Shown: positions 43,245 through 64,000 of the stretch, in pieces
Position numbering within the stretch: the first letter of the stretch is position 1
How the letters are laid out: every line of letters starts with the position of its first letter
NCBI GenBank assembly: GCA_013138735.1
Contig: WTCE01000041.1
Span: 1-64,000 of the forward strand
Origin: Crocinitomix sp.
Lineage (GTDB): Bacteria; Bacteroidota; Bacteroidia; Flavobacteriales_D; Crocinitomicaceae
Length of the DNA stretch: 64,000 bases
Reading direction: 5' to 3'
Translations under genes and position numbers: made by a program
Notes under the pieces: model-generated
The model's input: only the letters and a program-made list of their open reading frames with translations
The model's database searches: none
Told to the model about the DNA's origin: nothing

Positions 43245-43811
43245 ATGATTGATAGAGTCATTAAAACTGTAACGGACGAACTAATTGCGTATTTAGATTT
43301 GATTGGAGGATTAGAAGAACCTGCAACCAATATCGTAGAAATATCGCATCTGTTTAATTCCTCAGGGGAACCAATTCCTACAGAGTTGGGTGTGACATTA
43401 GTGAATATAGAAGAAGACCGAATTAATCGTGCCATTGATCCATACCTCAAAACGGAAAGTGGTGTAACAAGGGTCAACCCAGAACTTAAACTCAATCTTT
43501 TTGTCCTTTTTTCTGCAAATTTTGATTCTAATTATTCAGAAGCTTTAAAATTCATTTCATACGTAGTGCGCTTTTTTCAAAGTAAAAATGTCTTTACAAC
43601 GGAAAATACGCCCGCACTAGATGCAGATGTGAAAAAATTAATTGTTGAATTGCATCCAATGAGTTTTGAGCAACAAAATTACTTATGGGGCATGGTTGGT
43701 GGAAAGTATTTGCCATCTGCTTTGTACAAGTTTAGATTATTAGTGGTTCAAGAAAACATGGCCACGGAAGGAGTTTCAGAAATAGAAGAAATTAACGAAA
43801 ACATTTCATGA
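43245..43811 (+). CDS. eCIS DUF4255/Pvc16-like tail-terminator protein
   Basis: Start set at ATG 43245 (MIDRVIKTVTDEL), giving 189 residues; the longer frame begins with a TTG at 43218. The N-terminal part matches the Pvc16_N (DUF4255) family, whose members cap the distal end of the sheath and tube in PVC/Afp-type particles. Features seen are the VNIEEDRINR block, LNLFVLFSANFDSNYSEALKFISYVVRFFQ and the GGKYLPSALYKFRLLVVQ C-terminus. It is the first gene of the eCIS operon, with 6 bp to the next. Confidence 0.85.
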   Translation: MIDRVIKTVTDELIAYLDLIGGLEEPATNIVEISHLFNSSGEPIPTELGVTLVNIEEDRINRAIDPYLKTESGVTRVNPELKLNLFVLFSANFDSNYSEALKFISYVVRFFQSKNVFTTENTPALDADVKKLIVELHPMSFEQQNYLWGMVGGKYLPSALYKFRLLVVQENMATEGVSEIEEINENIS

Positions 43812-43817
43812 TAGCAC

Positions 43818-44816
43818 ATGACTAGATTTTATAAGAGACTATATCAATTTGATTTTAATCATACGTTTTACACCGATCGTGAAACGAGTGATTTTAGTAT
43901 GACGGCCTTTAGCGAAACAGTCGCCCAATTGCGGACAAATGGTTTGCTTCTAAAAACACGTGATACAGGTTTTGATTTAGTTTATCAAAAATTAACTGAT
44001 GTAGGCAATTTGCCTTTAATTGCAATAACGAGTTCAGAAAAATTAATGTTTAAAATTGAAGTGAGCAATCCCGATATTTTAAACGTTACAGACCTTGGAA
44101 CAAAAACAAATGCAACAGATATTTATAATTGTCAAGGAAAATTTTCTGATCCATTAGCCTTAAGCACTATTGCAACGCGCCAGCCTAACTTTACGGAAGA
44201 ATATACCTATACATTTGATAAAATAACGTTTAAAATAGAGGATGTTGATGGAGATATAATCTATGAAGAAGTACAAACAGGAACTCAAGATCCAGACGTT
44301 CCAACAAATTACAATTTTTCTTTTTCGGTGAATTTATCCAGCGGTTTTAAGCAAGATTATTATACGCTAAAAACTTATCGAAACGGCGTTCAAGAAGATG
44401 CGCTAGATGTATACCTATTTAATCGCTTATCGTACCCTAATTTGGTTGGGATTTTCGAACTGGAACTAGATGCTACTTTGGACTACAGCTTGGTTCCGTA
44501 TCAGGCCGTGCTAACTCTTAATGCCTTAGCAACTAAATGGGCTTATCAAATAGAGCTAACAAGAGATTTTACTGGTGGAATCATGAATGTAGTAGACAAT
44601 TCAAGTACTGTCGTTTTCACCGAAGACTTGCCAACTCCTGTATATGGAATTGGAGAAACTGTTGGCTTTACGTCAACAACAGAGATCACAAAAACAGAGA
44701 AAGCTATCGCTGATTTTAAGTTGGTAGTCACCTCACCTGGATTGGATGTAACGCTTGAAAAACTGCCAAATCCAACACATAATAATTTGAATTCAATTGT
44801 TTATTTAAAAATATAA
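43818..44816 (+). CDS. eCIS-associated protein of unknown function, possible cap adaptor
   Basis: A 332-residue soluble protein, no signal peptide, rich in beta-strands. The N-terminal part (RFYKRLYQFDFNHTFYTD) is followed by two or three beta-sandwich-like units; I do not recognise a family. Its place between the DUF4255 terminator and the sheath gene suggests a structural role at the distal end; AlgoCIS of Algoriphagus has a cap adaptor, and this would be a candidate equivalent, but no sequence link was tested. Gap to sheath is 17 bp. Confidence 0.6.
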   Translation: MTRFYKRLYQFDFNHTFYTDRETSDFSMTAFSETVAQLRTNGLLLKTRDTGFDLVYQKLTDVGNLPLIAITSSEKLMFKIEVSNPDILNVTDLGTKTNATDIYNCQGKFSDPLALSTIATRQPNFTEEYTYTFDKITFKIEDVDGDIIYEEVQTGTQDPDVPTNYNFSFSVNLSSGFKQDYYTLKTYRNGVQEDALDVYLFNRLSYPNLVGIFELELDATLDYSLVPYQAVLTLNALATKWAYQIELTRDFTGGIMNVVDNSSTVVFTEDLPTPVYGIGETVGFTSTTEITKTEKAIADFKLVVTSPGLDVTLEKLPNPTHNNLNSIVYLKI

Positions 44817-44833
44817 TATAAAAATCAAAACCT

Positions 44834-46957: not shown

Positions 46958-46980
46958 GATTAATAAATGGACATAAGCTA

Positions 46981-47014: not shown

Positions 47015-47052
47015 CAAAAATTAAATAGAACTTAATATTAAATACATAAAAT

Positions 47053-47487
47053 ATGGCAACTAATTATCCAATAACAGCATTCCATTTCAGAGTTGAATGG
47101 GGTGGAGCTACAGGCGCATTTACCGAAGCTTCTGGACTAAATTTAGAGCATCAAGTAGTTGAATATCGTGATGGATTAAGCAAAACGTATTCAACCATTA
47201 AAATGCCAGGAATGAATACCAACGGTGAGATTACACTCAAACGCGGAATTTTCAGAAAAAACAATGAATTCTATGATTGGTGGAATACTGTTTCAATGAA
47301 TGAAGTGGAAAGACGTGACATTACTGTTAGTCTTTTAGATGAAAATCATGAAGCAACAATGGTATGGAAATTCACGGACGCATGGCCTTCTAAAATTGAG
47401 GGAGCAAGTTTGAATTCAACTGGAAACGAAGTCGCGATTGAATCCATTACATTGGTTCATGAAGGGATGACTATATCCAATGATTAA
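47053..47487 (+). CDS. eCIS inner tube protein (gp19-like)
   Basis: A 144-residue T4 gp19-like tube protein (phage tail tube family, Pvc1-like). The signature is the N-terminal TAFHFRVEWGG with TEASGLNLEHQVVEYRDG, then KMPGMNTNGEITLKRGIF and the closing NEVAIESITLVHEGM. Hexameric rings of this protein stack into the tube inside the sheath. Its stop shares a base with the next gene's start (TAATGAG overlap). Confidence 0.95.
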   Translation: MATNYPITAFHFRVEWGGATGAFTEASGLNLEHQVVEYRDGLSKTYSTIKMPGMNTNGEITLKRGIFRKNNEFYDWWNTVSMNEVERRDITVSLLDENHEATMVWKFTDAWPSKIEGASLNSTGNEVAIESITLVHEGMTISND

Positions 47488-47939
47488 TGAGTTTATTATT
47501 TGAAAGGCCACCTTCGGGTTTTCATTTCGCAGTTATATTTGAATTATTGCCTCAGGCACCTAGTGATTTTAGGTTCCAAGAAGTTTCGGGGCTTACATCA
47601 ACTGTTGAAACAGAAGATTTTAAAGAAGGTGGTGAGAATAGATTTACGCATAAACTACCTAAAAGAAGTAGTTATAGTTCCCTTGAACTAAAGCGTGGCA
47701 TGTTTACAGGCTCGTTTATTGTGGATTGGTGTCGAGAAGCGATTGAGAATTTCAATTTCAAACCGGTAAACATTACCGTTATGCTTTTGAATGATCTGCA
47801 TCTGCCCATTGCAGGGTGGTATGTTGTAAACGCCTATCCCATTGAATGGAGTACTTCTGGTTTCAACGCCCAATCAAGCGACTTAGTGGTGGAATCTATT
47901 AAACTCAATTATTCATACTTCAACACCTTAAGAATTTAA
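47487..47939 (+). CDS. eCIS second tube protein, likely tube initiator
   Basis: A 150-residue paralogue of the tube protein (FHFAVIFELLPQAPSDFRFQEVSGLTSTVETEDFKEGG ... LELKRGMFTGSFIVDWC ... ESIKLNYSYFNTLRI). In PVC-type particles a separate tube-like protein (Pvc5) forms the first ring on the baseplate; this one's divergence and position fit that role. It overlaps the first tube gene by one base. Confidence 0.9.
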   Translation: MSLLFERPPSGFHFAVIFELLPQAPSDFRFQEVSGLTSTVETEDFKEGGENRFTHKLPKRSSYSSLELKRGMFTGSFIVDWCREAIENFNFKPVNITVMLLNDLHLPIAGWYVVNAYPIEWSTSGFNAQSSDLVVESIKLNYSYFNTLRI

Positions 47940-47945
47940 GAAAAA

Positions 47946-48116
47946 ATGCCCTTAGAGATTAAAGAAATAGTGATCACAGCTAGTGTCAGCGAATTAGTTG
48001 ACGGTGAAATGGGAATTGCTGCTTCAGGCGGAACGTCTGAAGAAAGTCGTGCGCAATTAATAGCAGATTGTGTCGAGCAAGTTTTGGAAATACTAAGTGA
48101 AAAAAGAGAACCCTGA
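47946..48116 (+). CDS. DUF5908 microprotein of the eCIS operon
   Basis: A 56-residue protein that starts PLEIKEIVITASVSEL and matches DUF5908, a short family found in contractile-injection loci between the tube and LysM genes. It is acidic, probably one beta segment followed by a helix (RAQLIADCVEQVLEILSEK). The stop overlaps the next start (ATGA), so it is translationally coupled. Function unknown; a chaperone or small baseplate filler is plausible. Confidence 0.85.
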   Translation: MPLEIKEIVITASVSELVDGEMGIAASGGTSEESRAQLIADCVEQVLEILSEKREP

Positions 48117-48868
48117 TGAGCGGCAAATTAGAAAAGTTAAGCATATTATCCTTTGAAACGGCGAAATTTGAAAAAGTCAAGCATACATATGTTGCGCTAA
48201 TTAATCCGGAACAGTTGGCGGTTGAAACAAGCATTAAGTTTGAAGACTCAGCGACCAGCGGTGCTACAAGTACTCAGAAAAATTTCAAAGGCACCAGTTC
48301 GCCTAAATTGAATATCAAATTTTTATTTGATAGCACAGGAATAATTAAGCAAGACAATCATGAAATTTCTTTCAGTTTAGGTGGAGGTTTTGACACGTCT
48401 GGAACTTCATCTGGCTCTAAATTAAGTGGCAAATCTAACGGGGGAAGTGTTGAAGAACAGATAGAGGCATTCAAACTAGTAACGTTGAAATGTGATAAAG
48501 GAACGCACGAACCAAACTATGTTAAATTGGTATATGGCGAATGGCTTTTTGTAGGGCGCCTTTCTAACTTTAAAGTCACTTATACTTTATTTGATAAGGA
48601 TGGAACAGCATTGCGTGCTACAGGTGACGCAGCATTTTCGGAATCCGTTGAAAAAACGTTCGAAGTAAAAAACAGAAAATTCGAATCCCCAGATTTGACA
48701 CATGTGAGGACGGTGCAGGAGGGGGATACACTTCACTTGATGTGCCAGACTATTTACAAAAACCCAAAATTGTATCTGGAAATTGCACGCGTGAACAAGT
48801 TGAGTAATTACAGGAAATTGACAACAGGTGAAAAATTATTCTTTCCACCAATAAAAGAATTGACCTAA
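48116..48868 (+). CDS. eCIS LysM-containing tube-baseplate adaptor (Pvc7-like)
   Basis: A 250-residue protein. The first 195 residues resemble the Pvc7/Afp7 adaptor that links spike and tube (EQLAVETSIKFE, then EPNYVKLVYGEWLFVGRLSN and YTLFDKDGTALRATGDAAF). A LysM domain fills about 196-250 (VRTVQEGDTLHLMCQTIYKN ... LTTGEKLFFPP), a module also seen at this place in T4 gp53-like and R-pyocin relatives. It sits with zero gap before the spike gene. Confidence 0.9.
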   Translation: MSGKLEKLSILSFETAKFEKVKHTYVALINPEQLAVETSIKFEDSATSGATSTQKNFKGTSSPKLNIKFLFDSTGIIKQDNHEISFSLGGGFDTSGTSSGSKLSGKSNGGSVEEQIEAFKLVTLKCDKGTHEPNYVKLVYGEWLFVGRLSNFKVTYTLFDKDGTALRATGDAAFSESVEKTFEVKNRKFESPDLTHVRTVQEGDTLHLMCQTIYKNPKLYLEIARVNKLSNYRKLTTGEKLFFPPIKELT

Positions 48869-50698
48869 ATGGCTGAAACTTTAGCAAATAACATCACTAA
48901 AGAGGCCCAGGTGCCGCATAGCTTTGAGATTTATCTCAGTGATTCACCTGTGGATGAAGGGGACGTTGTGAGTGCCGTTAATGAGCCGTTTCATATTGTG
49001 ATTGGAAAAATGGCGAATAAAATTGCCTATGCAAAACTGCTCATTGAAGACGGTCAAGTGGCGACACAAGACTTTCCAATAAGTAACGAAGATCAATATG
49101 CGCCGGGCAAATTCATCACTATTAAAATGGGAGATGTAAATGGAATGGAAACAGCCTTTAAAGGGATGATTGTAAAACATGGCATAAAAATTAAAAAGAA
49201 CAGAAAATTACATTTAACAATTGATTGTAGAGATAACGCTGTGGCAGCTACAACGCAAACCAAAAATAAATACTTCGCTGAAAACACGCTCGATTCTGAT
49301 GCGTTTAAAGAACTGCTCGGTGAGTACAAAAATGGAAAAGATCAATTAATAGACGTTTCGGGGATCGAGGACACCAATGTAGAACACGAAGGATTAGTAC
49401 AGTATAATACTACTGATTGGGATTTTATTGTAAAACGAGCCAACGCCGCAGGTCAATTAGTATATACCGATAATGGCATATTAACTACAGTTACACCCAC
49501 TATTGCAGCAAAGGAAGATTATACATTGCTTTTTGGGGATGAAATATTGGAGTTTGAAGCAGAAATTGATGCGAAAACACAATTTAATGAAGTAATTCTG
49601 AACGCTTGGGACTCATCAAAGCAAGAAATTGGAACGGAAGAATTAGGTAGTCTCGCAGGTATTGATTTAGATAAACCTGGTGATTTCAGCAATGAGGATT
49701 TATCTGCCCTTTTAAACGAGGATGGACTTAATATTAATTATCCAGGACATTTAGTGGCAGATGATTTGAAAAATTTTGTAAAAACAGAATTGATCAAATC
49801 TAAGTTGGCCCGTATAAGAGGACGTGTGTCGTTTGTCGAATCAACATTGATAAATCCTAGAAAAACCATTATGCTTGAGGGGGTAGGGAATCGATTTAAC
49901 GGTTTGGCCTATATCACAGGCGTAAGGTATGAATTTTCGAACAATATTTGGACCACTGATTTACAATTTGGATTAAGTCGTGATTGGTGCGAAAGTAGCG
50001 TCAAGGAAGTGGATCGGACAATGAATAGAATTCCAGAAATGTCTGGTTTACACATTGCCACAGTCACACGTTTAGATGACCCTTCGGGCGAAGATCGTGT
50101 AAAAGTGAGGATTCCGATTATTGATCCTAAGAGCGAAGGAGTTTGGGCAAAAATGTCTAGAACAGATGCTGGCGAACATAGAGGAATGTTCTTTCTTCCA
50201 GAGTTGGATGATGAGGTTTTAGTTGGGTTTTTAGGATGCGATCCGAGATATCCAATGATTGTTGGAATGCTGAACAGCAGTGCCAAACCAGCACCAGTTG
50301 CAGCATTGGAAAAAGATAACCTGAAGGGTTATTATTCAAAAGAGGGTAGTCGCTTAGAGTTTGATGACAAAAATAAAACGATTAAAATTCAAACATTAAG
50401 CAATAAGGAAGCTAAGAAATTGGAAGATTTCAGATCAGGCACGCCAGATCTAGAAAAGAATAATACCATTTTTATTGACGATAAGAAAGGAACAATTCTA
50501 ATCAAAGATAAAAATGGGAATCACATCAAATTTAGCGACAAAGAAATTCACATTTTTGGTAAAAAAAGGATCAATATAGAAGCACCAGACGTGTTTATTA
50601 AAGCAACTAAAAAACTAGAGACAGATACTGGTAAAAGTACTTTGCACGCCGGTGGTGAAACAAAAATAACGGGTTCACCAATTAATTTAAACCCATAA
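48869..50698 (+). CDS. eCIS VgrG-like spike protein (Pvc8-like)
   Basis: A 609-residue trimeric spike protein equivalent to fused T4 gp27-gp5 without lysozyme. The hub domains span about 1-390, followed by an OB-fold (SGLHIATVTRLDDPSGEDRVKVRIP ... VWAKMSRTDAGEHRGMFFLPELDDEVLVGFLGCDPRYPMIVGML) and a C-terminal beta-helix (FIDDKKGTILIKDKNGNHIKFSDKEIHIFGKKRINI). It ends where the PAAR gene starts (overlap of one base), as the PAAR cone sits on its tip. Confidence 0.94.
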   Translation: MAETLANNITKEAQVPHSFEIYLSDSPVDEGDVVSAVNEPFHIVIGKMANKIAYAKLLIEDGQVATQDFPISNEDQYAPGKFITIKMGDVNGMETAFKGMIVKHGIKIKKNRKLHLTIDCRDNAVAATTQTKNKYFAENTLDSDAFKELLGEYKNGKDQLIDVSGIEDTNVEHEGLVQYNTTDWDFIVKRANAAGQLVYTDNGILTTVTPTIAAKEDYTLLFGDEILEFEAEIDAKTQFNEVILNAWDSSKQEIGTEELGSLAGIDLDKPGDFSNEDLSALLNEDGLNINYPGHLVADDLKNFVKTELIKSKLARIRGRVSFVESTLINPRKTIMLEGVGNRFNGLAYITGVRYEFSNNIWTTDLQFGLSRDWCESSVKEVDRTMNRIPEMSGLHIATVTRLDDPSGEDRVKVRIPIIDPKSEGVWAKMSRTDAGEHRGMFFLPELDDEVLVGFLGCDPRYPMIVGMLNSSAKPAPVAALEKDNLKGYYSKEGSRLEFDDKNKTIKIQTLSNKEAKKLEDFRSGTPDLEKNNTIFIDDKKGTILIKDKNGNHIKFSDKEIHIFGKKRINIEAPDVFIKATKKLETDTGKSTLHAGGETKITGSPINLNP

Positions 50699-50988
50699 TG
50701 GCAGCAGCAGCAAAAATATCAGATAAGCACTTTTGTCCTAAGGTTGAACCAGGATCAGGTCCGCACAAGGGATTAAATATAATTATGGGAAGTGCTGATG
50801 TTTTTATTAATGGATTGGGGGCGGCGCGTAAAGGAGATTTGGCGCCTTGTATCGGTCCTCCCGATAGTATTTCTGAAGGTTCATCAAAGGTCAACATAAA
50901 TGGTAAACCGGCAGCTAGAGAGGGTGATCCTACAAAACATGAGGGCAAAATTATGTCAGGTAGTGATAACGTGAATATTGGTGGATAA
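50698..50988 (+). CDS. eCIS PAAR-domain spike tip
   Basis: A 96-residue single PAAR domain, the cone that sharpens the spike and can carry effectors. The repeats GPHKGLNIIMGSADVFINGLGAARKGDLAPC and SSKVNINGKPAAREGDPTKHEGKI are typical, with His and Cys residues placed to bind one metal ion. No extension domain is fused, so it does not itself carry a toxin. Confidence 0.94.
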   Translation: MAAAAKISDKHFCPKVEPGSGPHKGLNIIMGSADVFINGLGAARKGDLAPCIGPPDSISEGSSKVNINGKPAAREGDPTKHEGKIMSGSDNVNIGG

Positions 50989-51014
50989 TAAATAATTAAA
51001 GTAAAAAAGAAGAA

Positions 51015-51434
51015 ATGAACAGCAAAGAATTGGATACGCTTTTTCTTGGAAGAGGTTGGGGATTTCCGCCAACATTTAATAAGGGAGATAGAAGCCTAGA
51101 AATGGTGAGTGGCGAAATTGACATTCGTCAAAGTTTAGGAATTCTTCTAAGCACAACTCTTGGCGAACGAACCATTCACCCAGATTTTGGTTGTCAATTG
51201 GACGAATACTTATTTCAACCCATGACAACCAGTTTAACCACTCTAGTAAAAGATATTGTAGAAAGAGCAATTGTAGAACACGAATCTAGAATTGAATTAC
51301 TCGGGATAAATTTAAATTTAGAACAAGAAGTAGAAGGAGTATTGCTCCTTGAAATTGAATACCTGATTAGCGCAACAAATTCACGGAGTAATTATGTCTA
51401 TCCCTTCTATTTAGAAGAAGGAACTAATACCTAA
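51015..51434 (+). CDS. eCIS gp25-like baseplate wedge protein
   Basis: A 139-residue gp25/GPW-family protein, comparable to Pvc9 and T4 gp25, which starts sheath assembly on the baseplate. The diagnostic segment is IDIRQSLGILLSTTLGERTIHPDFGCQLDEYLF. The 2-bp gap to the next gene indicates co-translation with the large wedge protein. Confidence 0.94.
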   Translation: MNSKELDTLFLGRGWGFPPTFNKGDRSLEMVSGEIDIRQSLGILLSTTLGERTIHPDFGCQLDEYLFQPMTTSLTTLVKDIVERAIVEHESRIELLGINLNLEQEVEGVLLLEIEYLISATNSRSNYVYPFYLEEGTNT

Positions 51435-51436
51435 TC

Positions 51437-54400
51437 ATGCCAGAGCAAAATTGTAATAAAATAAATCCATTAAGACTGCAAGGAACGGCACAGGAAGACC
51501 GATCCCCAAAATTGTTGGATCCTGATTTGGTAAAAATCGACGGTAAAACACCGCAAGATTATCATGACATTATTACCAAATTGGCAGGAATTACCCAGTA
51601 CTATAATTCTAATAATCGACGAGACGGAGATTGGGAAGCATTTTTCAATGGAATCACATCAGAAAGTGATGATCCGCACTTAGCATTATTTAATGCATTT
51701 ATAGAATTAATAAAGTATGCCCAAAACGATATTAATGACCTTACCGAAAAACATTTAGCCTTTTATTATGAAGATGTTTTACAAATTGCAAAAAAGGCCG
51801 CAACACCAGATGAAGCACATATTCTATTTACATTAGCCAATAATATTAACGCACATTTAGTAGAAGACGAAACAGCACTAAAGGCGGGTAAAGATGCTAA
51901 TGGAAAAGGAAGGGTATTTGCCACAAATGATGAAATAGTTGTTAATAATGCAAAAATTTCAGGCCTTAAGTCAGTCTTTACAAAAGTAGATGACGTAACT
52001 GGAATTCAAAAGGTTTATGCCGCTCAAATTGCAAATTCAGGAGATGGAATCGGTGGAGATTTGGATGAAGAAAATCCTAAATGGGCTGCTTTTGGAAAAC
52101 CTCAAGCAGGATTGGATTCAGTAACCATGGAAGACGCGGCATTGGGCTTCGCCATTGTTAGCCCGTTTTTATTGATGAAAGAAGGGGTAAGAACGCTTGA
52201 GTTGACATTTACATTTGTTTCTACTCATGAAATTGAAGCAACAGATTTAACGGTTGATGACTTCACAATATATCTTTCTGGTGAGGAAGAGTGGATTAGT
52301 GTTACACCTACAGCAGTTTCTGTACCAAGTACTTCAACATTCGCTATAAGTTTCTCTTTGGCAGCAGACGAAAAACCTGTAATGGGATATGATGAGGATG
52401 TTTTTGAAGAAAATTATAACACTACCGAACCAATTTTGAAACTTTTGGTGAATCAATCTGATTCAAAAAATGTTTATTCCAAATTACTCAAATATGGGCT
52501 AAGTTCAGTAGCAATAAACTTAGCTGTCAACGGTGTAACGGAATTGGTTTTGCAAAATGAAACGGGAACATTAGATCCTTCAAAACCATTTGCACCCTTC
52601 GCTTCGCAACCTGTAATAGGTTCTGAATTTTATATTGGAAGTAAAGAGATTTTTAGTAAACCTTTGACTGATTTAAGATTTGATATTGATTGGCAAGATA
52701 GGCCGTCCGTTTTCAATGATGTATATGATGAGTACAGCAGTTCTACGATCAATACTTCCGATTTTAAAATTAAACTGAATGCCTTAAGAGCAAAAAGTTG
52801 GGGGCATTACCTTTCTGAAGATGATATTAATTTGTTTGATGATGCAACAGATGATATTATTGGTACAGCATCCCTCGGTTCGGTATTTGATAAAGTGGTT
52901 GATGTTGCCGATTTTGACGAATATGCAACAAGTTTAAATAATGGCTTTGTACGAATGGAACTTACTGGCCCCAATGATACTTCTAATGGGTTAATTGCAT
53001 TTGGACATGGACAATATCAAGATCTATACGTAACGGCATCCATCAATAAATCAAGGTGGGATATCGATCCAGATACGGTAGTATTACCGAAAAAACCTTA
53101 TACCCCCAAAATAAAATCAATCGCCGTAAATTATTCGGCGGCACTAACAATTAGTTTAGTCGCAAGTCCGTCAAGCGATTCAATAGATGGCAGTTTTTTC
53201 CATATTGGACCTTTCGGGATTGTTGAAAAAGAACCAGTTTTGGCGGTGGGCGTTGGTTTTATTCCTGAATTTATAAATGAAGGAAATTTTTATGTTGGAT
53301 TGGAAGACTTAGTGCTACCCCAAAATCTGAATATTTTATTCCAAGTGGCAGAAGGAAGCGAAAATCCAGATTTATTGCCAGCCGAGATTCAATGGAAGTA
53401 TTTAGTGAATAATGTATGGCATAAGTTTGTCTCAACAGAAATTTTAGGCGATTCAACCAATGGATTGATTAATTCTGGAATCATAAAACTTGCTTTGCCA
53501 AAAACCATGAATGATGATAATACATGGTTACCACCAAATTACTATTGGCTTAAAGGTGAAGTTTTAACCGAATCCGATTCAGTATGCGAGCTAATTAATT
53601 TGCATCCACAAGCCATTACAGCCACTTTTAGCGATAATGAAAATGATGTTTCGCATTTAGCGGATCCTTTAGAAGCTGAAACAGTTAACAAATTGGCAAG
53701 TAGCAATAGCGCTATTCGCAAAGTAGAGCAGCCTTATGCCTCATTTAAGGGGAAATTACCCGAAGAAGAGGATAATTATTACCAACGAGTAGCAGAACGT
53801 TTACGCCATAAAAATCGCGCGATCACAATTTGGGATTATGAACGAATTGTATTGGAAGAATTTCCTTCCATTTACAAAATAAAATGTTTGAATCACACGC
53901 GAATGACTGTTAAGTATTCTGAGCAAGCTCCAGGCAATGTATCGCTCGTTGTTATTTCAAACCTTAGAAATCAAAACGCAATAAACCCATTTCAACCGAC
54001 TACAAGTTTAGCCACGCTTCAAGCGATTGCGGCCTTTTTAGAACCTTTGAAAAATCCTTTCACAACATTGCATGTGAAAAACCCATATTTCGAAGAAATT
54101 AAAGTCAAGTTTAATGTGCGTTTATTACCCAATAAAGATGAAGGTTTTTATGAATTGCAATTAGAAATTGATTTGAAAAAATACCTGTCTCCATGGGCTT
54201 ATGAAGAAGGAGAGGATATTTCTTTTGACGGTATAATTCACAAGTCAAAAATTATAAATTTCATTGAAGAGTTAGACTATGTTGATTATTTGACATGTTT
54301 TGAAATGTATCATGTTATTGAAGGTGATGAATCAAACTTAAAAGATACAAATCAAGCAGAAGCATCCAAGTCAAGTGCAATTCTAGTTTCATCTGGTTCA

Positions 54401-54526
54401 CATGCTGTAACAGTACTAACAACAGACGATTGTGCTTGTGATGGAGATAACGTTATAAATGAAACAATTACGGATGGCATTGGAGCAATGACCGTCAATT
54501 ACGACCTATTAGTTAATAAACCATAA
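51437..54526 (+). CDS. eCIS large baseplate wedge protein (Pvc11/gp6-like)
   Basis: A 1029-residue baseplate-J/gp6-like protein. The block YQRVAERLRHKNRAITIWDYERIVLEEFPSIYKIKCLNH at about residues 780-815 is characteristic of Pvc11-type proteins, followed by a KVKFNVRLLPNKDEG strand region. The middle (about 230-760) is beta-rich and poorly conserved in style. It would pair with the second wedge protein at 55560 to build the baseplate ring. The C-terminus (ACDGDNVINETITDGIGA) is typical of Bacteroidota versions. Confidence 0.9.
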   Translation: MPEQNCNKINPLRLQGTAQEDRSPKLLDPDLVKIDGKTPQDYHDIITKLAGITQYYNSNNRRDGDWEAFFNGITSESDDPHLALFNAFIELIKYAQNDINDLTEKHLAFYYEDVLQIAKKAATPDEAHILFTLANNINAHLVEDETALKAGKDANGKGRVFATNDEIVVNNAKISGLKSVFTKVDDVTGIQKVYAAQIANSGDGIGGDLDEENPKWAAFGKPQAGLDSVTMEDAALGFAIVSPFLLMKEGVRTLELTFTFVSTHEIEATDLTVDDFTIYLSGEEEWISVTPTAVSVPSTSTFAISFSLAADEKPVMGYDEDVFEENYNTTEPILKLLVNQSDSKNVYSKLLKYGLSSVAINLAVNGVTELVLQNETGTLDPSKPFAPFASQPVIGSEFYIGSKEIFSKPLTDLRFDIDWQDRPSVFNDVYDEYSSSTINTSDFKIKLNALRAKSWGHYLSEDDINLFDDATDDIIGTASLGSVFDKVVDVADFDEYATSLNNGFVRMELTGPNDTSNGLIAFGHGQYQDLYVTASINKSRWDIDPDTVVLPKKPYTPKIKSIAVNYSAALTISLVASPSSDSIDGSFFHIGPFGIVEKEPVLAVGVGFIPEFINEGNFYVGLEDLVLPQNLNILFQVAEGSENPDLLPAEIQWKYLVNNVWHKFVSTEILGDSTNGLINSGIIKLALPKTMNDDNTWLPPNYYWLKGEVLTESDSVCELINLHPQAITATFSDNENDVSHLADPLEAETVNKLASSNSAIRKVEQPYASFKGKLPEEEDNYYQRVAERLRHKNRAITIWDYERIVLEEFPSIYKIKCLNHTRMTVKYSEQAPGNVSLVVISNLRNQNAINPFQPTTSLATLQAIAAFLEPLKNPFTTLHVKNPYFEEIKVKFNVRLLPNKDEGFYELQLEIDLKKYLSPWAYEEGEDISFDGIIHKSKIINFIEELDYVDYLTCFEMYHVIEGDESNLKDTNQAEASKSSAILVSSGSHAVTVLTTDDCACDGDNVINETITDGIGAMTVNYDLLVNKP

Positions 54527-55559: not shown

Positions 55560-58500
55560 GTGAGTAGCCAAGACCACATAACGATAAGTGCAAAACCTTC
55601 TGAAAAAGAAAGCAAAAATTTCGATTTATTGCGTGAAGAGGGAATTAACTACCTGCAAAAAGTTGCAGGCAAAATTTGGACGGATTATAACTTGCATGAT
55701 CCTGGTGTTACAATATTAGAGCAATTGTGTTATGCAATTAATGATATTGGATACCGTGCCAATTTAGATATAAAAGATCTGCTTGCCATTAATGAGGATG
55801 ATGACACAAGCGCGGATTTAAATAATTTTTATACTGCCCGTGAAATTTTAACCAATGCACCCTTCACAAAAAATGATTATCGAAAATTATTAATTGATTG
55901 TGATGGAATTAAAAATGCTTGGTTTGATATTACTAAAAAATCTGAGGTTGATTTTTATGTCGATCCAAACGCCAAAGAAATAACATACATTGAAAATGCT
56001 TTTACTGGCAAAATTGATCTAAATGGATTGTATGACGTTCTCTTAGAATTTGATTATTCTGATGAATTTGGTGATTTAAATGACAATACACTTGTACATG
56101 AAATTGAAATAGAAACAGGTGATTTAAAAGGACTGATTCTTGAAATTACTATTGAGTTTCCGTATTGGGATGTTGAATGGGAAACAGGTAAAAGCTGGGA
56201 TGATTTAATTGATGTAAAAGAAAGCATTAAAAAGATATACATTGAATTGAATAATTCAGTAAAAGGATTTACAATTGAGATTGAAGTCAGTCCAGCAAAT
56301 GTTATTTCAGTTCAAGTAGCAGATAGTAGCGGGATTTCATTTGTGGATAAGCCCTTATTAGCGGCAGCATTAAAAACAACAATAGATGATCTTTTAGACG
56401 TAGCAGGTGCAGGAGATGATAATTTATTGGTGCAACAACAAAACAAAGTAGCAGAAACATTACTGCTGTTGGACAAAGCAAAAGCCGTGCTGCACGAAAA
56501 CCGCAATTTATGCGAAGATTTTGTGCGCTTTAGTGCCCTTAAAATTGAAGAAATTGCCATTTGTGCTGACATTGAATTAATGGCAGATGCAAATACAGAA
56601 GAAGTATTGGCAGAAATTTATTTCCTCGTAGGACAATTTTTAGCGCCCGATATCCATTTCTATTCCTTCGCAGAAATGTTGGAAAAGGACAATACAACAG
56701 AAGAAATATTTGAAGGTCCACGTCTCGATCATGGTTTTATTGATACCACCGAATTAGAGGCAAGCAGCCGAATGAAAAATATCCATGTTTCTGATCTCAT
56801 TAGCATCATTATGGATATTGAAGGCGTTGTTGCCGTTAAAGAAATTCAAATTGGTAGTATTCCTTTGGGTGATTCCTCAGTTGTTGCTCAAAGTGTGCTT
56901 TGGTGTTTGGAACTTGCTTGGGAAAAGAATTTTGTTCCGCGTATAAGTCCAGAACAATCTAAAATTATCTTCATAAAAAAAGGAATTCCTTTCATTGCTG
57001 ATGAAGAAATTGTTGAAGACCTATTAGAAGCTAAAAAGGCTGAGGTAAGTGCTGTAAATGCTGTTGTTACTCAACCAGATTTGCCAGTACCAAATGGCTT
57101 ATTTTATAATTTGGCTGATTATGAAACCATACAAACGGGTTTTCCAGAAAATTATGGGATCGGTAATGTTGGCTTAGCAGATTCTGCTTCTGATGAACGC
57201 AAATCTCAAGCCAATCAACTTAAAGCATATTTATTGTTTTTTGATCAGTTTTTGGCAAATTATTGCTCACAATTGGCAAACGTCAAAGAACTATTTTCAA
57301 TGAATAGTGACATTGATAAAACCTATTTCCATCAATCGTTATTTGATATTCCAAACGGAGCAAACCTGTTTAAAGATTTTATTGATCAAGCTGGATTGAA
57401 AAGTGACCCAACAAAAGATAGTACAGATGATGTTAAATTAGCCTGGGAAGCATTTAAGGCAAAAGATCAATTGATTACAGAGCAATTCCTTTGTGATGAC
57501 GCAATTGAAAAATCAAGGGCAGATACTTTAGGATGTATCATTGAAGGAAAAGAAGCCTTTTTGAAACGCCGTAACATGTTTTTAGACCATTTGCTAGCAA
57601 GGTTTAGTGAGCAGTTTACTGATTATGCCATGCTCGCATACAAAATGGACGGAGCTAAAGCAGATCAAGAACTGATTGATGATAAGTTGGCGTTTTTACA
57701 ATGTTATCCAGAACTGAGTTATAGAAGAGGGCAGGCCTTTAACTATCTCAAACCAGCTTGGGATAATGATAATGTTGCGGGACTTCAAAAAAAAGTAGCA
57801 AGCTTATTAGGAATCGATAACTATAATCAACGCGACTTAAGTTGTCCTCCACCTTTGACCAATTTTATAAAATTCAAAGACTCAGATGGAAAATGGCGCT
57901 TTAGATTTGTAAATAAGGGCAATGACATTTTATTAAAAAGTGAAGCCTACAATAGTACTTCGGGCCGAACAACTGGTATTAAATCCGTTTTAAATAATGG
58001 GATTACGTATGCCAATTATGATTTGTTAACTGCGGTAGATGGGAAATTCTATTACAACCTTGTAGCGCAAAATGGCGAAATAATTGGAACAAGTAATTTG
58101 TATGAAACCATTGCGGAACGGGATGACGCCTTGGAACAATTAGTCACCATCTTGAGAGGAGAATGTAGTGGAGAAGGATTTTATTTATTGGAGCATATTT
58201 TGCTTCGACCAAGAGTGGCACCTGAAGACGACTTTTTACCCGTAAGCTTTCAAGAGGATTGTTATTGCGAAGGAAATGAAGATGCATACTCATTTAGAGC
58301 GACTTGCATTTTACCCTACTGGATCGGTAGGTTTACGAATATGGATTTCAGAAGATTTGTGGAACGTACAATTCGGGAAGAAACTCCAGCGCATATTTTT
58401 ATGAAAATTTGTTGGATCGATCAAGAGCATATGTCGGATTTTCAAGTTGCACATAAGGCGTGGCTTGAAGCTTTGGAACCTTGCCCTCCAATTCAAACAG

Positions 58501-58658
58501 AATTAACTGAAAAGCAAAATAATTTAATTGCAGTTCTGAATACACTCAGAAATGTTTACCCCGTATCGCATTTATACGATTGTCAAGAATCACAAGACAG
58601 TCCAGTCATGTTAGGACAATCAATTTTAGGAACTTTTATACCGAACGAAAATGAGTAA
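55560..58658 (+). CDS. eCIS second large baseplate protein (Pvc12-like)
   Basis: A 1032-residue wedge protein with a GTG start at 55560. The N-terminus (FDLLREEGINYLQKVAGKIWTDYNLHDPGVTILEQLCYAINDIGYR) is the conserved start of Pvc12-type baseplate proteins. The mid-part (AYLLFFDQFLANYCSQLANVKELFS) and the C-terminal LLEHILLRPR followed by IREETPAHIFMKICWID are also recurring in eCIS loci. It overlaps the next gene by 8 bp. It would bridge wedge and outer baseplate. Confidence 0.9.
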   Translation: MSSQDHITISAKPSEKESKNFDLLREEGINYLQKVAGKIWTDYNLHDPGVTILEQLCYAINDIGYRANLDIKDLLAINEDDDTSADLNNFYTAREILTNAPFTKNDYRKLLIDCDGIKNAWFDITKKSEVDFYVDPNAKEITYIENAFTGKIDLNGLYDVLLEFDYSDEFGDLNDNTLVHEIEIETGDLKGLILEITIEFPYWDVEWETGKSWDDLIDVKESIKKIYIELNNSVKGFTIEIEVSPANVISVQVADSSGISFVDKPLLAAALKTTIDDLLDVAGAGDDNLLVQQQNKVAETLLLLDKAKAVLHENRNLCEDFVRFSALKIEEIAICADIELMADANTEEVLAEIYFLVGQFLAPDIHFYSFAEMLEKDNTTEEIFEGPRLDHGFIDTTELEASSRMKNIHVSDLISIIMDIEGVVAVKEIQIGSIPLGDSSVVAQSVLWCLELAWEKNFVPRISPEQSKIIFIKKGIPFIADEEIVEDLLEAKKAEVSAVNAVVTQPDLPVPNGLFYNLADYETIQTGFPENYGIGNVGLADSASDERKSQANQLKAYLLFFDQFLANYCSQLANVKELFSMNSDIDKTYFHQSLFDIPNGANLFKDFIDQAGLKSDPTKDSTDDVKLAWEAFKAKDQLITEQFLCDDAIEKSRADTLGCIIEGKEAFLKRRNMFLDHLLARFSEQFTDYAMLAYKMDGAKADQELIDDKLAFLQCYPELSYRRGQAFNYLKPAWDNDNVAGLQKKVASLLGIDNYNQRDLSCPPPLTNFIKFKDSDGKWRFRFVNKGNDILLKSEAYNSTSGRTTGIKSVLNNGITYANYDLLTAVDGKFYYNLVAQNGEIIGTSNLYETIAERDDALEQLVTILRGECSGEGFYLLEHILLRPRVAPEDDFLPVSFQEDCYCEGNEDAYSFRATCILPYWIGRFTNMDFRRFVERTIREETPAHIFMKICWIDQEHMSDFQVAHKAWLEALEPCPPIQTELTEKQNNLIAVLNTLRNVYPVSHLYDCQESQDSPVMLGQSILGTFIPNENE

Positions 58659-61600
58659 TACAGTAACAACATTAGCAGATGAATTGAATAATTCATATCC
58701 GGTTTTCGAAGCCAATCAATTGCTTACAAGCACACACTTAAATCAGTTGCGCACTTATTTGGACGTACAAGACCGCTTGAGTCGAGTAAAGTTGGTTGGA
58801 ATGGGAATCGTATGCGGATTGGAAGTCTCATACGATAGTAACGTCATTTCAATAAGTGGCGGTACAGGAGTGACCTCACAAGGTTTTCTTGTTGAAATTC
58901 CTGAAAGTAATTTCCCTAAGTGTACCTTGGCTAGTTATTTCGATCCAGAAAATTATGCGCCATTTATTACGGAAGCACCTACATTAACAGGGCAAATACC
59001 TATGTATGAATTGCTCCCTTCGGGTGCAACGGAGCCAGCAACACTCGAAGTAATTAATTTTAATGACTCTGATTTTGCAGGGTTTTTAGAAGACAAAGTA
59101 GTGGTACTGTTTGTTGAATTTGAAGATATAGATCTAGAATCTTGCTTGGGTCAAAATTGTGACGATAGAGGGATTTCTCGCAAGTTCACTATCCGTAGAC
59201 TTTTGTTGAATTGTGATGATGTAGACGCGATAATTAAAAGCGGGTATAATATCATATCTCCTCAAACATTGGATGGTAACTTTAATCAAAGATTTAATCA
59301 GAATTATGCGGCAATGCCATCCGCTTCATTGATTCCTCACAACACATTACCGGCGAATTTTAATACAGCCTATCAAAGTTTAAATACAGCTGAAACGCTT
59401 CAAGACAGATTTGAAGTAATCTTTCCCAATCTTGCGCTCAATCCATTACGTGGGTTAGATACATTAATCACTGAAGCCTATCAAAGATTTTCGCCTTTAT
59501 TACAAAACTTAATTAGCATCACACAAATAAACGATCTTCAAACCGATTTTGATGCTTTTTTGGCCGAATGTAAAACAAATAACACCGTTCAATATTATTA
59601 TGATTTTGCTAAAGACATTATAAAAGCATACAATGAATTTTTTGATGGAGCATTTGATTTAACCGCCGAGTGCTGTCCAGATCAAGATGCTTTTAAACGA
59701 CACCTAGTGTTGGGTAAAGTTAAAGCAGGCTTTGGTTGTCCAGAAACAGAAGATGAATGCAGACCAAAGCTTTATCGTACACATTTCATTCAGTCACCAA
59801 TTTATAATCAACAAAAAGATAAATTGGCCGAAGTGCGTAATAATTTTAAACGCCTAGTTGAAATGATTTCAGGATTTCAAACTTCACATCCGGCCATTGG
59901 GCCTTTAAAAGTAACACCGAGTGATGAAAAACAGCACCTGTTGGAGTATCGAAGTATCCCGTTCTACTATTCAGTAGCGCCTTTATTTAAATATTGGAAT
60001 TATAACCTGTCAAAAAAATGCCGTTCTGAATGGAATTTAGGCTATAATGCTGATGCATTTGATGTGCCCAATGATTCAAGCCAATATCCGCTTGCTTTCT
60101 GCAAGGATAAACATAATTTTTATCGGATTGAAGGGCTTTTAAATAAGCCGCATAACGAAATTAGAGAGCAACTAGAAATACTCAAAAGAAAGTATCAACT
60201 TGAATTTGATGTGATGGCATTGAAATTACAAAAAGGTGTTGCTCCTGTTTCACATAAAGCCAATTGTGGAATTATCGATATTAAAGAGGATTATCTGCAA
60301 TTAAGAAATGAAATAATTGCGGAAACAAAAAAATATTCGTGGTTACTCTCCAAGTTTTTTTACTTCATTTCTAATGCGAGTGACATAATGGCTAGCATTT
60401 TTAAAGAAGGTGTAGTTGTAACCAATCAAAAAACGCACAAAGAGACACCTTTTGTTGGTGCAGCTTCAGATACAGGATTGGAAACGGGCGGCGCTCCTGA
60501 TTTATCAATTTTTGCAGACGTATTGCAATCGATTAATGAGGTAGAAGAGTTAGTTAATGCAATGCCTATTTGTATTGAAGATTTTAACTATGATGAATTC
60601 AAAAATGCATTTAAAGAATTGCAAGAACTATCCTTTGTTATAGCTGTTTCCTTCGAAAATGTAATACGCAAGTTTTATACAGGTAATTCCATTGCCTTGA
60701 TTTTAATGGCACCATTGATTCAAAATTTCATTGAGCGTTTTTTCTTAGTAAACTTTGGGTTCATAGGAAGTATTTATGATTTAAATGATATCCTTCGAAG
60801 TCATTGGGATGTGAAAATGAAATCAATCTATTTTTCCTATAAAAAACGTTTAGACGCAATTGACAATGCTAAACTATTTTCAAATTTCGCGAAGAATAAT
60901 CCAGGTTTAGAACATATGGCTGGCGTGCCTATAGGAGGAACGTTTATTATGGCGTACGAATCTGAAACTTCGCCTAATGTTGTGATGGACTATGCTTTAC
61001 ACGGAAAACCTTGTTGCATTGATTATTTTCCAATGTGCAATGAAAATGCGCCTAAATATCCACCAGTGGCTAAAAACGTTTATTTCTTTTTAAATGATAA
61101 AATTGATCAAGGCGTCCCGGTTTATATTGATGTATTGGAATTCGCTATTGACTTAAATGAACCAACAGAAACATTAGACCTTGCTGAGTTCCCAGTTTTT
61201 ACAACAGAGCAACAAAGCACAATGAAAGGAATTCCAGTGCGGATTCATAGTGAAGTGTTAGGAAGGGCAGTTGTTGAATATACCAGCACAAATAATTTTG
61301 ACCTTGGAATTGATAAGTTTGAATTTACTGTAGTGAATGATAGAGGTGAAACTGACACAGCATGCGTTTTTGTTACAAAAGCAATTATAGGTGGAAACAT
61401 CTTCTTGACAGTTGCTAAAAAGTTTGATGATTTCTTTAATACAGCAAATGACGCAGACGGAGAACAAGTAGAATTAGATGATGGTGGTCTAACTGGACCT
61501 GGAGGAGCTTATGATTATTCTAAGGAATTAAGGGGGCATCACCTAAACGGAGAATCAGAACTGGCCAAAGTTTATGCAGGAGGAATCGCGGCAGATAATA

Positions 61601-62094
61601 ACAAAGCTTTAATTTATATTGGTAAAACGGAGAAGGAACTTCAAACTGTAATCGATTTAGGTGAATTGGCCAGTGATGCCACTGCTGAAGATAAAAAAGT
61701 GTATGAACTAGCAGTGATTAACTCGGTTGGAATCTTAATGGAAGATACCAAAAATGAAATTCAGGAATTGGAAGTGTTAATTGGTGTAACGCCAACAAAT
61801 CCGAAAGAGGCATTACAGCACGGATTAAGAAATGCGCAAAAGATTAACGAAAAAGAAGCATTAATCTCGTTGTACGGAGAACAAACTGAAAGATTGAGAA
61901 AGATTGTTGAAAGCCAAGATTTAGCGACAGATGTAGATAGTGAAATGTATAAGTTTATAGATCTAAATGTACGGGCGCAAGGAGCAGTAATTCATAAACA
62001 TACCACACGAATTAATGATGGATTTGTTGCCTATGCAGGTAAGGATGGAATTAATGCAACAAGAAAAGATTTATTTGGTTCATTTAACGGTTAA
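58651..62094 (+). CDS. Large eCIS-associated protein with Ig-like segment, unrecognised
   Basis: A 1147-residue soluble protein. The first 200 residues (SYPVFEANQLLTSTHLNQLR, then VKLVGMGIVCGLEVSYDSN, GVTSQGFLVEIP) look like a docking region. Residues about 480-760 are helical with coiled-coil character. Near 810-910 is a segment like bacterial Ig/cadherin-like domains (VYFFLNDKIDQGVPVYIDVLE ... DLGIDKFEFTVVNDRGETDTACVFVT), and the last 200 residues are charged and helical. Position after the baseplate and before the tape measure suggests an outer baseplate or fibre protein. No family name was available; overlaps the preceding gene by 8 bp. Confidence 0.7.
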   Translation: MSNTVTTLADELNNSYPVFEANQLLTSTHLNQLRTYLDVQDRLSRVKLVGMGIVCGLEVSYDSNVISISGGTGVTSQGFLVEIPESNFPKCTLASYFDPENYAPFITEAPTLTGQIPMYELLPSGATEPATLEVINFNDSDFAGFLEDKVVVLFVEFEDIDLESCLGQNCDDRGISRKFTIRRLLLNCDDVDAIIKSGYNIISPQTLDGNFNQRFNQNYAAMPSASLIPHNTLPANFNTAYQSLNTAETLQDRFEVIFPNLALNPLRGLDTLITEAYQRFSPLLQNLISITQINDLQTDFDAFLAECKTNNTVQYYYDFAKDIIKAYNEFFDGAFDLTAECCPDQDAFKRHLVLGKVKAGFGCPETEDECRPKLYRTHFIQSPIYNQQKDKLAEVRNNFKRLVEMISGFQTSHPAIGPLKVTPSDEKQHLLEYRSIPFYYSVAPLFKYWNYNLSKKCRSEWNLGYNADAFDVPNDSSQYPLAFCKDKHNFYRIEGLLNKPHNEIREQLEILKRKYQLEFDVMALKLQKGVAPVSHKANCGIIDIKEDYLQLRNEIIAETKKYSWLLSKFFYFISNASDIMASIFKEGVVVTNQKTHKETPFVGAASDTGLETGGAPDLSIFADVLQSINEVEELVNAMPICIEDFNYDEFKNAFKELQELSFVIAVSFENVIRKFYTGNSIALILMAPLIQNFIERFFLVNFGFIGSIYDLNDILRSHWDVKMKSIYFSYKKRLDAIDNAKLFSNFAKNNPGLEHMAGVPIGGTFIMAYESETSPNVVMDYALHGKPCCIDYFPMCNENAPKYPPVAKNVYFFLNDKIDQGVPVYIDVLEFAIDLNEPTETLDLAEFPVFTTEQQSTMKGIPVRIHSEVLGRAVVEYTSTNNFDLGIDKFEFTVVNDRGETDTACVFVTKAIIGGNIFLTVAKKFDDFFNTANDADGEQVELDDGGLTGPGGAYDYSKELRGHHLNGESELAKVYAGGIAADNNKALIYIGKTEKELQTVIDLGELASDATAEDKKVYELAVINSVGILMEDTKNEIQELEVLIGVTPTNPKEALQHGLRNAQKINEKEALISLYGEQTERLRKIVESQDLATDVDSEMYKFIDLNVRAQGAVIHKHTTRINDGFVAYAGKDGINATRKDLFGSFNG

Positions 62095-62096
62095 TC

Positions 62097-63683
62097 TTGA
62101 GCGCCAGCGGTCACATAGTTAAAAAGTTAGCACTTAATTTGGAGATCGATAAAGGGCTTTCCGTTGAAAATGTTAGAAATAGCATGTTGGATTCGTTAAA
62201 TGGCCAACTTAAAACGGAATTGAATCATGTAATGGATGAATTATGTGGAGATGGTCAAATGGTGCGGATTGATTGTTTAGAATTGGATTTAGGAAATGTA
62301 ACGCCGCAAAATTTGAATCATGGTTTAATTGAAGAACTGAGGTCTGAATTAAGAAAGGCCGTAGTGAATCAATATGGGGATGATATTCGCAAAGCCCAAG
62401 CCAATGATCAGCCAGGCACCGAGGGTGGAGTTGAATTAATTACAGAAGTCAGGATTGAAAACGACGTTCCAGTAGATCGAACTTTAAACAGTTTTGTGTT
62501 CTTTTTGGAAACAGGAACATTTCCGTGGTGGGCCACATTACATAGCCTAAAAGAGATTGAGACATATGTTACCGAAGATTTATTCATTCAAAAATCTGAA
62601 AATCAAACGGCTCATGCACATGCCCTTAAAAAAGTATTACACGTCATAACCGCTAATACACGGGCAAGAAAAAGGTTTTTCCAGCAATTGCCAACAGCTA
62701 TTATAATCCAATTTTCAGAACAGTGGTTCGGATCAAAATCAAAACAATATAGTGCTGTAATGCAATGGCTCCTAATAATTTTTAGACCCATTATACAGCA
62801 GAAGGAAACAACGCTCACGAGCTATTTGCACCTAGCGTTCATCAACCAACTCTTGTCAATTCAAAGTGAAACGAGGCAAAAAGCAGTACATGAAATTATC
62901 GCGGGCTTTGTTAAAGAATATCTAGTGATAACTAAAACTTCTTTTTCAAGCAAACAAATCAGTACCCTTAAAGCGCTGGTATTAAATCAAGAAAAAATAA
63001 AGCAGTTGAAAAAGGCGGTCAATAAGCCAAACCAAAAAGAACTAATCGCTTTGGTCATTGCTGAAATTCAAACCCATCAAAAAACAAGATCAAAGGCTCC
63101 TATCACCGAGTCTGTTAAAAAGCAAGGGGAAAATAAAGTTGAAAGTGAAAAGGAAAGAATCAAAGAAGAACCTGAACTTTTTGACATAGCGGCCGAGTTT
63201 GGCTACGCAGGGGCTGTTATTCTTTGGCCTATGCTCACAACATTTTTCAAAAGCAGGAATCTAATCGAGGGCAAAGCATTTAAAGATGAAGCTGCACAAG
63301 CTAAAGCACTGCAACTTTTAAATTATTTAGTTTCCGGTTTTGATGAATTGCCCGAATTTGAAATGCCCCTCAATAAAATATTATGCGGCATCCCAATTAA
63401 GGAAGTCATTATCTTTGATACAGAATTAACTGAAGATGATAAGACCGAAATCAATGCGCTATTAGAACATGTTATCACCAATTGGTCGGTCTTAAAAAAT
63501 ACAACGCCACGCGGTTTGCGCGAAGGGTTTATTTTCCGAAAAGGAGAATTAACAGAGTTTGAAGAAAGTTGGCTTTTAACCGTGGAACAAAAGGGAATAG
63601 ACATTATAATGAATAAATTACCATGGGGTTATTCAATGATTAAACTACCATGGATGGATAAAATATTACAAGTGCAATGGTAA
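62097..63683 (+). CDS. Contractile injection system tape-measure protein
   Basis: A 528-residue protein with a TTG start at 62097. It matches the CIS tape-measure (CIS_TMP) family: N-terminal HIVKKLALNLEIDKGLSVENVR ... MVRIDCLELDLGNVT, and a C-terminal region AGAVILWPMLTTFFKSRNLI ... LLEHVITNWSVLKNTTPRGLREGFIFRKGEL ... LPWGYSMIKLPWMDKILQVQW that is nearly diagnostic. The middle helical part is short, so the tube is likely short or this half only sets the ends. It overlaps the ATPase gene by 7 bp. Confidence 0.92.
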   Translation: MSASGHIVKKLALNLEIDKGLSVENVRNSMLDSLNGQLKTELNHVMDELCGDGQMVRIDCLELDLGNVTPQNLNHGLIEELRSELRKAVVNQYGDDIRKAQANDQPGTEGGVELITEVRIENDVPVDRTLNSFVFFLETGTFPWWATLHSLKEIETYVTEDLFIQKSENQTAHAHALKKVLHVITANTRARKRFFQQLPTAIIIQFSEQWFGSKSKQYSAVMQWLLIIFRPIIQQKETTLTSYLHLAFINQLLSIQSETRQKAVHEIIAGFVKEYLVITKTSFSSKQISTLKALVLNQEKIKQLKKAVNKPNQKELIALVIAEIQTHQKTRSKAPITESVKKQGENKVESEKERIKEEPELFDIAAEFGYAGAVILWPMLTTFFKSRNLIEGKAFKDEAAQAKALQLLNYLVSGFDELPEFEMPLNKILCGIPIKEVIIFDTELTEDDKTEINALLEHVITNWSVLKNTTPRGLREGFIFRKGELTEFEESWLLTVEQKGIDIIMNKLPWGYSMIKLPWMDKILQVQW

Positions 63684-64000
63684 AAAACGAATCAAATTTA
63701 AATGCAAATGCCCTTTCCAAAGAAATGGATTGGTTGGCCGAAGTCCTAGATTGCCGCTTTCAAAATTATTTTAAAAATGAAGGAAAATTTGATTCCATTC
63801 GAGATGTAAAACCGCTTGCATTTAGGAATCACAAATCAAAATTTGCAGAGTTCATCAAAACCTACGATTTGTCATTTGATGAACGAGTTTTGGTCGCTAT
63901 GGCATTGGCTCCGCATGTTAAACCCGAATTGTTAGATGTTTTTTTTATTCAGAACTCAACTTTTAATAGAGGATTTAGTGAGTTTGGGGGAGTAAAAGGA
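63677..64000 (+). CDS. eCIS AAA+ ATPase, N-terminal part (runs off window)
   Basis: The first 108 residues of a gene cut by the window edge. The sequence shows a helical N-terminal region, then LALAPHVKPELLDVFFIQNSTFNRGFSEFGGVKG, which is the lead-in to the AAA+ domain of Bacteroidota eCIS ATPases (Pvc15-like). The Walker motifs lie beyond the edge. Such ATPases are encoded in most eCIS loci and may handle cargo loading or assembly. Starts inside the tape-measure gene's last codons. Confidence 0.85.
   Translation, partial: MVKNESNLNANALSKEMDWLAEVLDCRFQNYFKNEGKFDSIRDVKPLAFRNHKSKFAEFIKTYDLSFDERVLVAMALAPHVKPELLDVFFIQNSTFNRGFSEFGGVKG

Follow-up and report, generated by a model that had tools for sequence, protein, structure and literature searches.

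A contractile injection system operon in Crocinitomix sp. and a YegP module in its Cis12 baseplate wedge

A 64,000-nucleotide stretch of a Crocinitomix sp. contig (WTCE01000041.1; hereafter the window) ends in a row of tail-like genes, which raises the question of what kind of contractile machine they encode and whether any of its parts are new. A first-pass annotation had read the row as an extracellular contractile injection system (eCIS) of the Afp/PVC/MAC/AlgoCIS kind, with toxin cargo beyond position 64000 and two nameless proteins (43818 and 58651) as possible new parts. The system and the cargo are borne out, but both proteins are known parts, 43818 being the cap adaptor Cis16B by fold and 58651 the fibre Cis19 by phmmer. 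The unexpected part, unseen in the first-pass annotation, is a YegP/UPF0339 (DUF1508) module within the wedge protein encoded at 55560, Cis12. Directly established are the gene set, the identities of Cis16B, Cis19 and Cis13, the YegP homology, and the presence of several module copies in the Cis12 extension of Anabaena.

Gene set and kind of system

The window is part of a 114867-base contig of a 6.84-Mb genome, and its right flank was read on the contig beyond 64000. Sixteen co-directional genes occupy positions 43245-65029, fifteen of them complete and the last, an ATPase, cut by the window edge; they are nearly gapless, with -8 to 95 bases between genes over 43218-65029. The genes that the first-pass annotation had named are present and share one direction; its count was fifteen. 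Names follow the Cis nomenclature (PMC8894135, PMC8894136), those of Cis5 and Cis6 being given by order and family. The genes, in order and with E-values, are as follows.

43245-43811, plus strand: Cis16A, tube terminator/cap, 188 residues (Pfam Pvc16_N, formerly DUF4255, 1.7e-33, scanned from the upstream TTG at 43218)
43818-44816, plus strand: Cis16B, cap adaptor, 332 residues
44834-46957, plus strand: Cis2, contractile sheath, 707 residues (Pfam Phage_sheath_1C, 6.1e-12)
47053-47487, plus strand: Cis1, inner tube (Pfam Phage_T4_gp19, 3.5e-46)
47487-47939, plus strand: Cis5, tube initiator, named by order (Pfam Phage_T4_gp19, 8.3e-37)
47946-48116, plus strand: Cis6, spike plug, 56 residues, named by order and PMC8894136 (Pfam DUF5908, 5.5e-15)
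48116-48868, plus strand: Cis7, tube initiator with a LysM-like C-terminal part (Pfam CIS_tube, 7.5e-40; LysM weak, below cut-off)
48869-50698, plus strand: Cis8, VgrG-like spike (Pfam Phage_base_V, 1.5e-19; TIGR01646, 9.4e-48)
50698-50988, plus strand: Cis10, PAAR tip (Pfam PAAR, 1.4e-29)
51015-51434, plus strand: Cis9, gp25-like (Pfam GPW_gp25, 4.6e-21)
51437-54526, plus strand: Cis11, J-like wedge with spike-cage domain (phmmer to Algo11 7aeb_G, 1.9e-157; Pfam Baseplate_J, 4.3e-05)
54531-55553, plus strand: Cis13, short fibre with a C-terminal intramolecular chaperone of the Peptidase_S74 family (Pfam S74, 1e-14)
55560-58658, plus strand: Cis12, wedge (phmmer to All3315, 5.1e-163, and Algo12, 1.5e-127)
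57846-58166, plus strand: YegP/UPF0339 (DUF1508) module of Cis12, residues 763-869
58651-62094, plus strand: Cis19, crown/tail fibre, 1147 residues (phmmer to All3314, 8.1e-64, and AlgoCIS fibre 9wt0_a, 5.2e-43)
62097-63683, plus strand: Cis14, tape measure (Pfam CIS_TMP, 5.9e-99)
63677-64000 and on to 65029 outside the window, plus strand: Cis15, AAA+ ATPase (Pfam AAA, 4.7e-26, at L007:1678-3027)

At these E-values, chance can be set aside as an explanation of the matches. The start of Cis16A was set at the ATG at 43245, in agreement with 188-residue relatives. One operon thus holds a sheath, gp19 tubes, a VgrG-like spike, PAAR, gp25 and a J-like wedge together with a Pvc16_N terminator, CIS_tube, a CIS tape measure and an AAA+ ATPase, which is the gene content of an eCIS, and Cis16B, the Cis11 cage and Cis19 are features of the AlgoCIS-like systems (clade Ib). 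The LysM adaptor of the first-pass annotation stands as Cis7 by its CIS_tube match, less so by LysM.

Several parts had to be identified individually. A sequence search of the PDB with 43818 gave nothing, and PHROGs and NCBIfam gave no usable name for 43818, the 56-residue plug or 58651 (the only rows having E 0.066 for 43818 and 0.017 for 58651); a fold search with the 43818 model was positive for Cis16B, and the phmmer matches of 58651 identify it as the Cis19 fibre. The Peptidase_S74 domain of Cis13 spans residues 237-290, with Ser237 and Lys242 at the spacing of the endosialidase dyad, and no hydrophobic segment was found in this protein (maximum 19-residue Kyte-Doolittle mean 0.77). Cis11 aligns by phmmer in a single stretch to residues 110-1038 of the Alg11 chain and, on this alignment, contains the cage domain, placed at 278-643 in Alg11 (PMC8894135).

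AlgoCIS of Algoriphagus machipongonensis (PDB 7aeb, 7adz, 9wsz, 9wt0; PMC8894135, PMC13314943) shares with the present operon a Cis16A/16B cap, a single sheath gene, a plug, a caged Cis11 (the nearest to ours, 1.9e-157), a Cis12 with a YegP-like region, a Cis19 fibre and DUF4157 cargo. Unlike AlgoCIS, the operon has its S74-bearing Cis13 between Cis11 and Cis12, a near-canonical YegP module where Alg12 has one half-module stretch only, and cargo proteins with two eCIS_core domains each. The thylakoid-anchored contractile injection system (CIS) of Anabaena PCC 7120 (all3313-all3327; PDB 7b5h, 7b5i; PMC8894136) has the same order around the wedge, the Cis16B fold and the nearest solved Cis12 and Cis19; however, the transmembrane (TM) helix of its Cis13 is absent here, and in place of its long Cis12 extension (All3315 residues 610-1100) there is one 107-residue module. 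Afp and PVC (PDB 6rao, 6j0n) have the core contractile parts in common, and the window's Cis11 and Cis12 match theirs, but the YegP-module profile finds nothing in Afp12 or Pvc12 at E<=10. According to PMC8894135, AFP/PVC lack a homologue of Alg19, and the cap adaptor is presented there as a contrast to the other eCISs known.

A YegP module in the Cis12 wedge

The Cis12 module scores 78.6 bits against the curated YegP/DUF1508 profile (cut-off 22) and is predicted to take the two-repeat YegP fold. It shares fold and sequence with the YegP/UPF0339 proteins of PDB 2k8e and 2k49. These are small and stand alone (the title of 2k8e gives its function as unknown), whereas in Cis12 the domain forms part of a baseplate wedge. 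We compared 80 named Cis12 loci that were picked by similarity to the window; the closest named Cis12 is that of a Crocinitomicaceae metagenome-assembled genome (60%). An insert of 90-125 residues occurs at the module position in 69 of these, and one of more than 20 residues in 76. A profile built from 18 modules matches 63 of the 80 Cis12 proteins, or 45 of 62 once those behind the profile are set aside. Of its 68 domain matches, 67 fall inside the module region, the sole outlier being a second copy in locus L090. A YegP-only profile of five sequences finds 12 of the 80, every match inside the module, and shuffled controls gave 0 and 1 of 800. Under a stricter scan the profiles detect the module in only 42 of the 80.

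The module profile finds five successive stretches, two clear and three weak, in the All3315 extension, which on sequence carries several YegP module copies. VIA-align paired 105 residues of the window module with All3315, the first and last aligned residues being 616 and 1163, a span that does not tell which copy is matched, and Foldseek gave E 4.7e-3 against the All3315 chain. No cyanobacterial Cis12 DNA was found among the 80 loci or among the 30 plasmid records listed out of 59, so the Anabaena result draws on PDB sequence and structure only. In Alg12 the profile covers about half a module in one stretch (598-641, E 1.7e-5). Two YegP-like modules within one Cis12 were seen in L090 and L157 (reverse strand), between the single module here and the five stretches of Anabaena.

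In the literature searched, which did not extend to supplements, subscription journals or preprints, no link of DUF1508 or YegP to contractile injection was found, and no UPF0339 paper concerns a CIS by its title. The available text of PMC8894135 does not use DUF1508, YegP or UPF0339, and that of PMC8894136 does not use UPF0339. The YegP module of the Cis12 wedge was not found in print, although it may be in print elsewhere.

Module and Cis19 fibre occur together frequently, but a strict rule that the module requires Cis19 was not upheld, with exceptions both ways. No statistics are claimed for this, as the loci are related to each other and the 80 were picked for their likeness to the window. 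Cis19 was found in 77 of the 80 named loci (68 under an earlier, stricter open reading frame (ORF) rule); it was not found in L078, where the contig ends, L090 or L113. L059 is a broken frame. Beyond the 80, we considered 32 loci (28 from relatives and four from the Crocinitomix sp. genome itself), 29 of which remained after removal of three without Cis12. The insert measures at least 110 residues in all nine of these that have Cis19. Among the 20 without it, five have an insert of only 8-19 residues, L139 was judged by eye to be without the module (computed gap 206), L133 (profile match) and L159 (by eye) have it, and 12 were left out of judgement (L142-L152 and the genome's own C15 locus, some with long unassigned gaps). 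Cis12 proteins of 1872-2289 residues were seen in L133, L154, L155, L159 and the host genome (G000 C1:17074-22932), where no Cis19 was found; these may possibly contain a fused fibre.

The idea that YegP arrays are an adaptation to thylakoids or to TM anchoring was not supported. Six of the 80 named loci have inserts of 238-598 residues, and none of the six is titled as cyanobacterial; the next gene upstream is fibre-like in four and Cis11 in two, and no 19-residue hydropathy mean in it exceeds 1.65. Only one or two stretches of these inserts match the module profile, and none in L096; with so few matches they are not established as YegP arrays.

Cargo, flanks and further loci

Extension to the right completed the ATPase and showed the cargo genes expected past 64000. 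Behind Cis15 lie three large genes, followed by one of 331 residues.

Contig 65141-68509 (L007:3142-6510): secreted adhesin-like protein of the type IX secretion system (T9SS) type, with IgGFc_binding, PKD, SprB and CHU_C
Contig 68805-77039 (L007:6806-15040): giant cargo protein 1, 2744 residues, two eCIS_core (DUF4157) domains
Contig 77305-85590 (L007/L008): giant cargo protein 2, 2761 residues, two eCIS_core domains

The four eCIS_core stretches lie at contig 69309-81186, at the 3' end of the locus. The two cargo proteins are 74% identical over their N-terminal 250 residues and have different C termini (an AHH nuclease and an M35 peptidase); by its domain make-up, each amounts to tandem effectors in a single chain. 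Among 55 core-type ORFs counted by a crude pattern in the fetched loci, with overlapping loci not removed, these two alone have two cores. Further downstream, a protein of WD40 repeats with a caspase (Peptidase_C14) domain at its C terminus is encoded at contig 93966-97031 (L008:11967-15032), and a GldL_N-like membrane protein lies just upstream of Cis16A (42133-42888), with similar sequence seen by eye at that place in two same-genus genomes (L125, L126).

CIS_TMP occurs in four places of the host genome, the highest number among 149 genomes; the family is present in 21 of these, the host among them. G003 and G005 show it in three places each, and a weak fourth in G005 falls below the cut-off. 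Four loci are not exceptional, since genomes with two to five eCIS copies have been described (PMC8213781). The three further loci are at C117:8114-20000, C15:77788-105250 and C1:5003-35841, and no Cis19 was found in their fetched stretches. In one C117 cargo, eCIS_core is joined to Peptidase_M23, whose members include peptidoglycan hydrolases, a hint of bacterial targets. Very long tape-measure genes were seen at C15:86609-90907 and as frames of 960-1446 residues in relatives; CIS_TMP matches them twice, often with profile ranges that overlap (in C15, 1-253 and 125-463), as would follow an internal duplication or a large insertion. No paper in the searched set joins Crocinitomicaceae and 'contractile injection'.

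The particle and the role of its module

We consider it highly probable that the operon encodes an intact eCIS of the AlgoCIS/Anabaena type that would be assembled, released and fired as follows. By homology to the solved AlgoCIS and Anabaena particles, a sheathed tube capped by Cis16A/Cis16B would be assembled in the cytoplasm, with the Cis11 cage enclosing the spike and long fibres formed by six Cis19 trimers. Release would most likely be by lysis. Cis19 and the S74-folded Cis13 fibre would bind the target, and the tube would be fired to deliver the eCIS_core cargo, the nuclease- and peptidase-tipped giant proteins. Injection of proteins into other cells is the probable use of the syringe.

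A membrane-anchored machine like that of Anabaena, with its baseplate tethered to a cellular membrane and not released, would fit the nearest solved chains for Cis12 and Cis19 and the gene order Cis11-Cis13-Cis12-Cis19, which is that of all3317-all3314 (PMC8894136). However, the anchor in Anabaena is the Cis13 TM helix and the All3315 extension is its "wide connector" to the thylakoid membrane (PMC8894136), whereas here Cis13 has an S74 chaperone end and no hydrophobic segment, and one YegP module stands against five matching stretches in All3315. S74 fibres have been described in eCIS before (PMC12923769). We therefore hold a released eCIS to be more likely than a membrane-bound one and regard anchoring as unlikely. 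Decay to a non-functional eCIS is less likely still: four loci in one genome could mean redundancy, and the Cis12 copy of same-genus G008 (60% identical) has an internal stop, but all 16 ORFs here are open and tightly spaced, and the Cis16B and Cis12 pieces of same-genus G003 and G005 are 80-91% identical and stop-free. We give almost no weight to a prophage tail, an R-type tailocin or a type VI secretion system (T6SS), which have sheath, tube, gp25 and VgrG-like parts in common with the operon, the spike matching the T6SS VgrG model TIGR01646 (9.4e-48). Against all three stands the joint presence of CIS_TMP, Pvc16_N, DUF5908, Cis16B, Cis19, an AAA ATPase and eCIS_core cargo. The head, portal, terminase, TssJ/L/M and ClpV genes that the first-pass annotation had named as grounds for rejecting its reading had no match in the scanned ORFs of 36238-101673 (downstream, 18 of the 25 listed over 62097-101676, those at 76996, 89395, 90155, 92854, 97694, 97931 and 100731 being unscanned); the search for capsid, terminase and T6SS membrane-complex genes was confined to the locus.

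Several points weigh against an intact, released eCIS whose wedge carries a YegP module. The system is known here from its genes, and the closest PDB chains for Cis12 and Cis19 belong to the membrane-anchored Anabaena system, not to a released eCIS. The Cis16B model is of moderate confidence (pLDDT 79.2, 8 sequences). Only two of the five All3315 stretches are significant alone, Cis19 occurs without the module in L105, L110 and L115, and the module was found without Cis19 in L090, L113, L133 and L159, the last by eye.

Within the eCIS particle that we favour, the YegP module would be displayed in the exposed gp7-like part of Cis12, and we propose that it serves the wedge as an arm for surface contact or for bracing the fibres. 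PMC8894135 describes the gp7-like part of Alg12 as exposed on the lateral face and interacting with tail fibres, and calls it a "hotspot" for re-engineering in evolution; according to PMC13314943, the Alg19 fibre is held by loops of Alg12 domain VI. Because Alg12 is modelled only over residues 3-551 (PMC8894135), we infer that its YegP-like module (about 598-720) lies in the gp7-like part. For Anabaena, the authors leave open whether Cis12 meets the membrane directly or through a partner (PMC8894136). The copies form a series, undetected in Afp/PVC, single here and apparently in AlgoCIS, double in L090 and L157 and up to fivefold in Anabaena, whose extension is what reaches the membrane. A bolder idea, which we hold tentatively and with considerable doubt, is that the module acts generally as an outer arm of the CIS wedge, tunable through its copy number, which would set the reach of the baseplate's contact surface.

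The operon adds another well-preserved eCIS to those known, from a genome that carries four eCIS loci. Read as YegP-like, the periphery of Cis12 gains a fold and a family, and its role becomes testable, while the orphan YegP/UPF0339 domain gains a physical location in a machine. If the tunable arm were true, YegP domains would be modules that bind proteins or surfaces, and their role could be placed within that machine.

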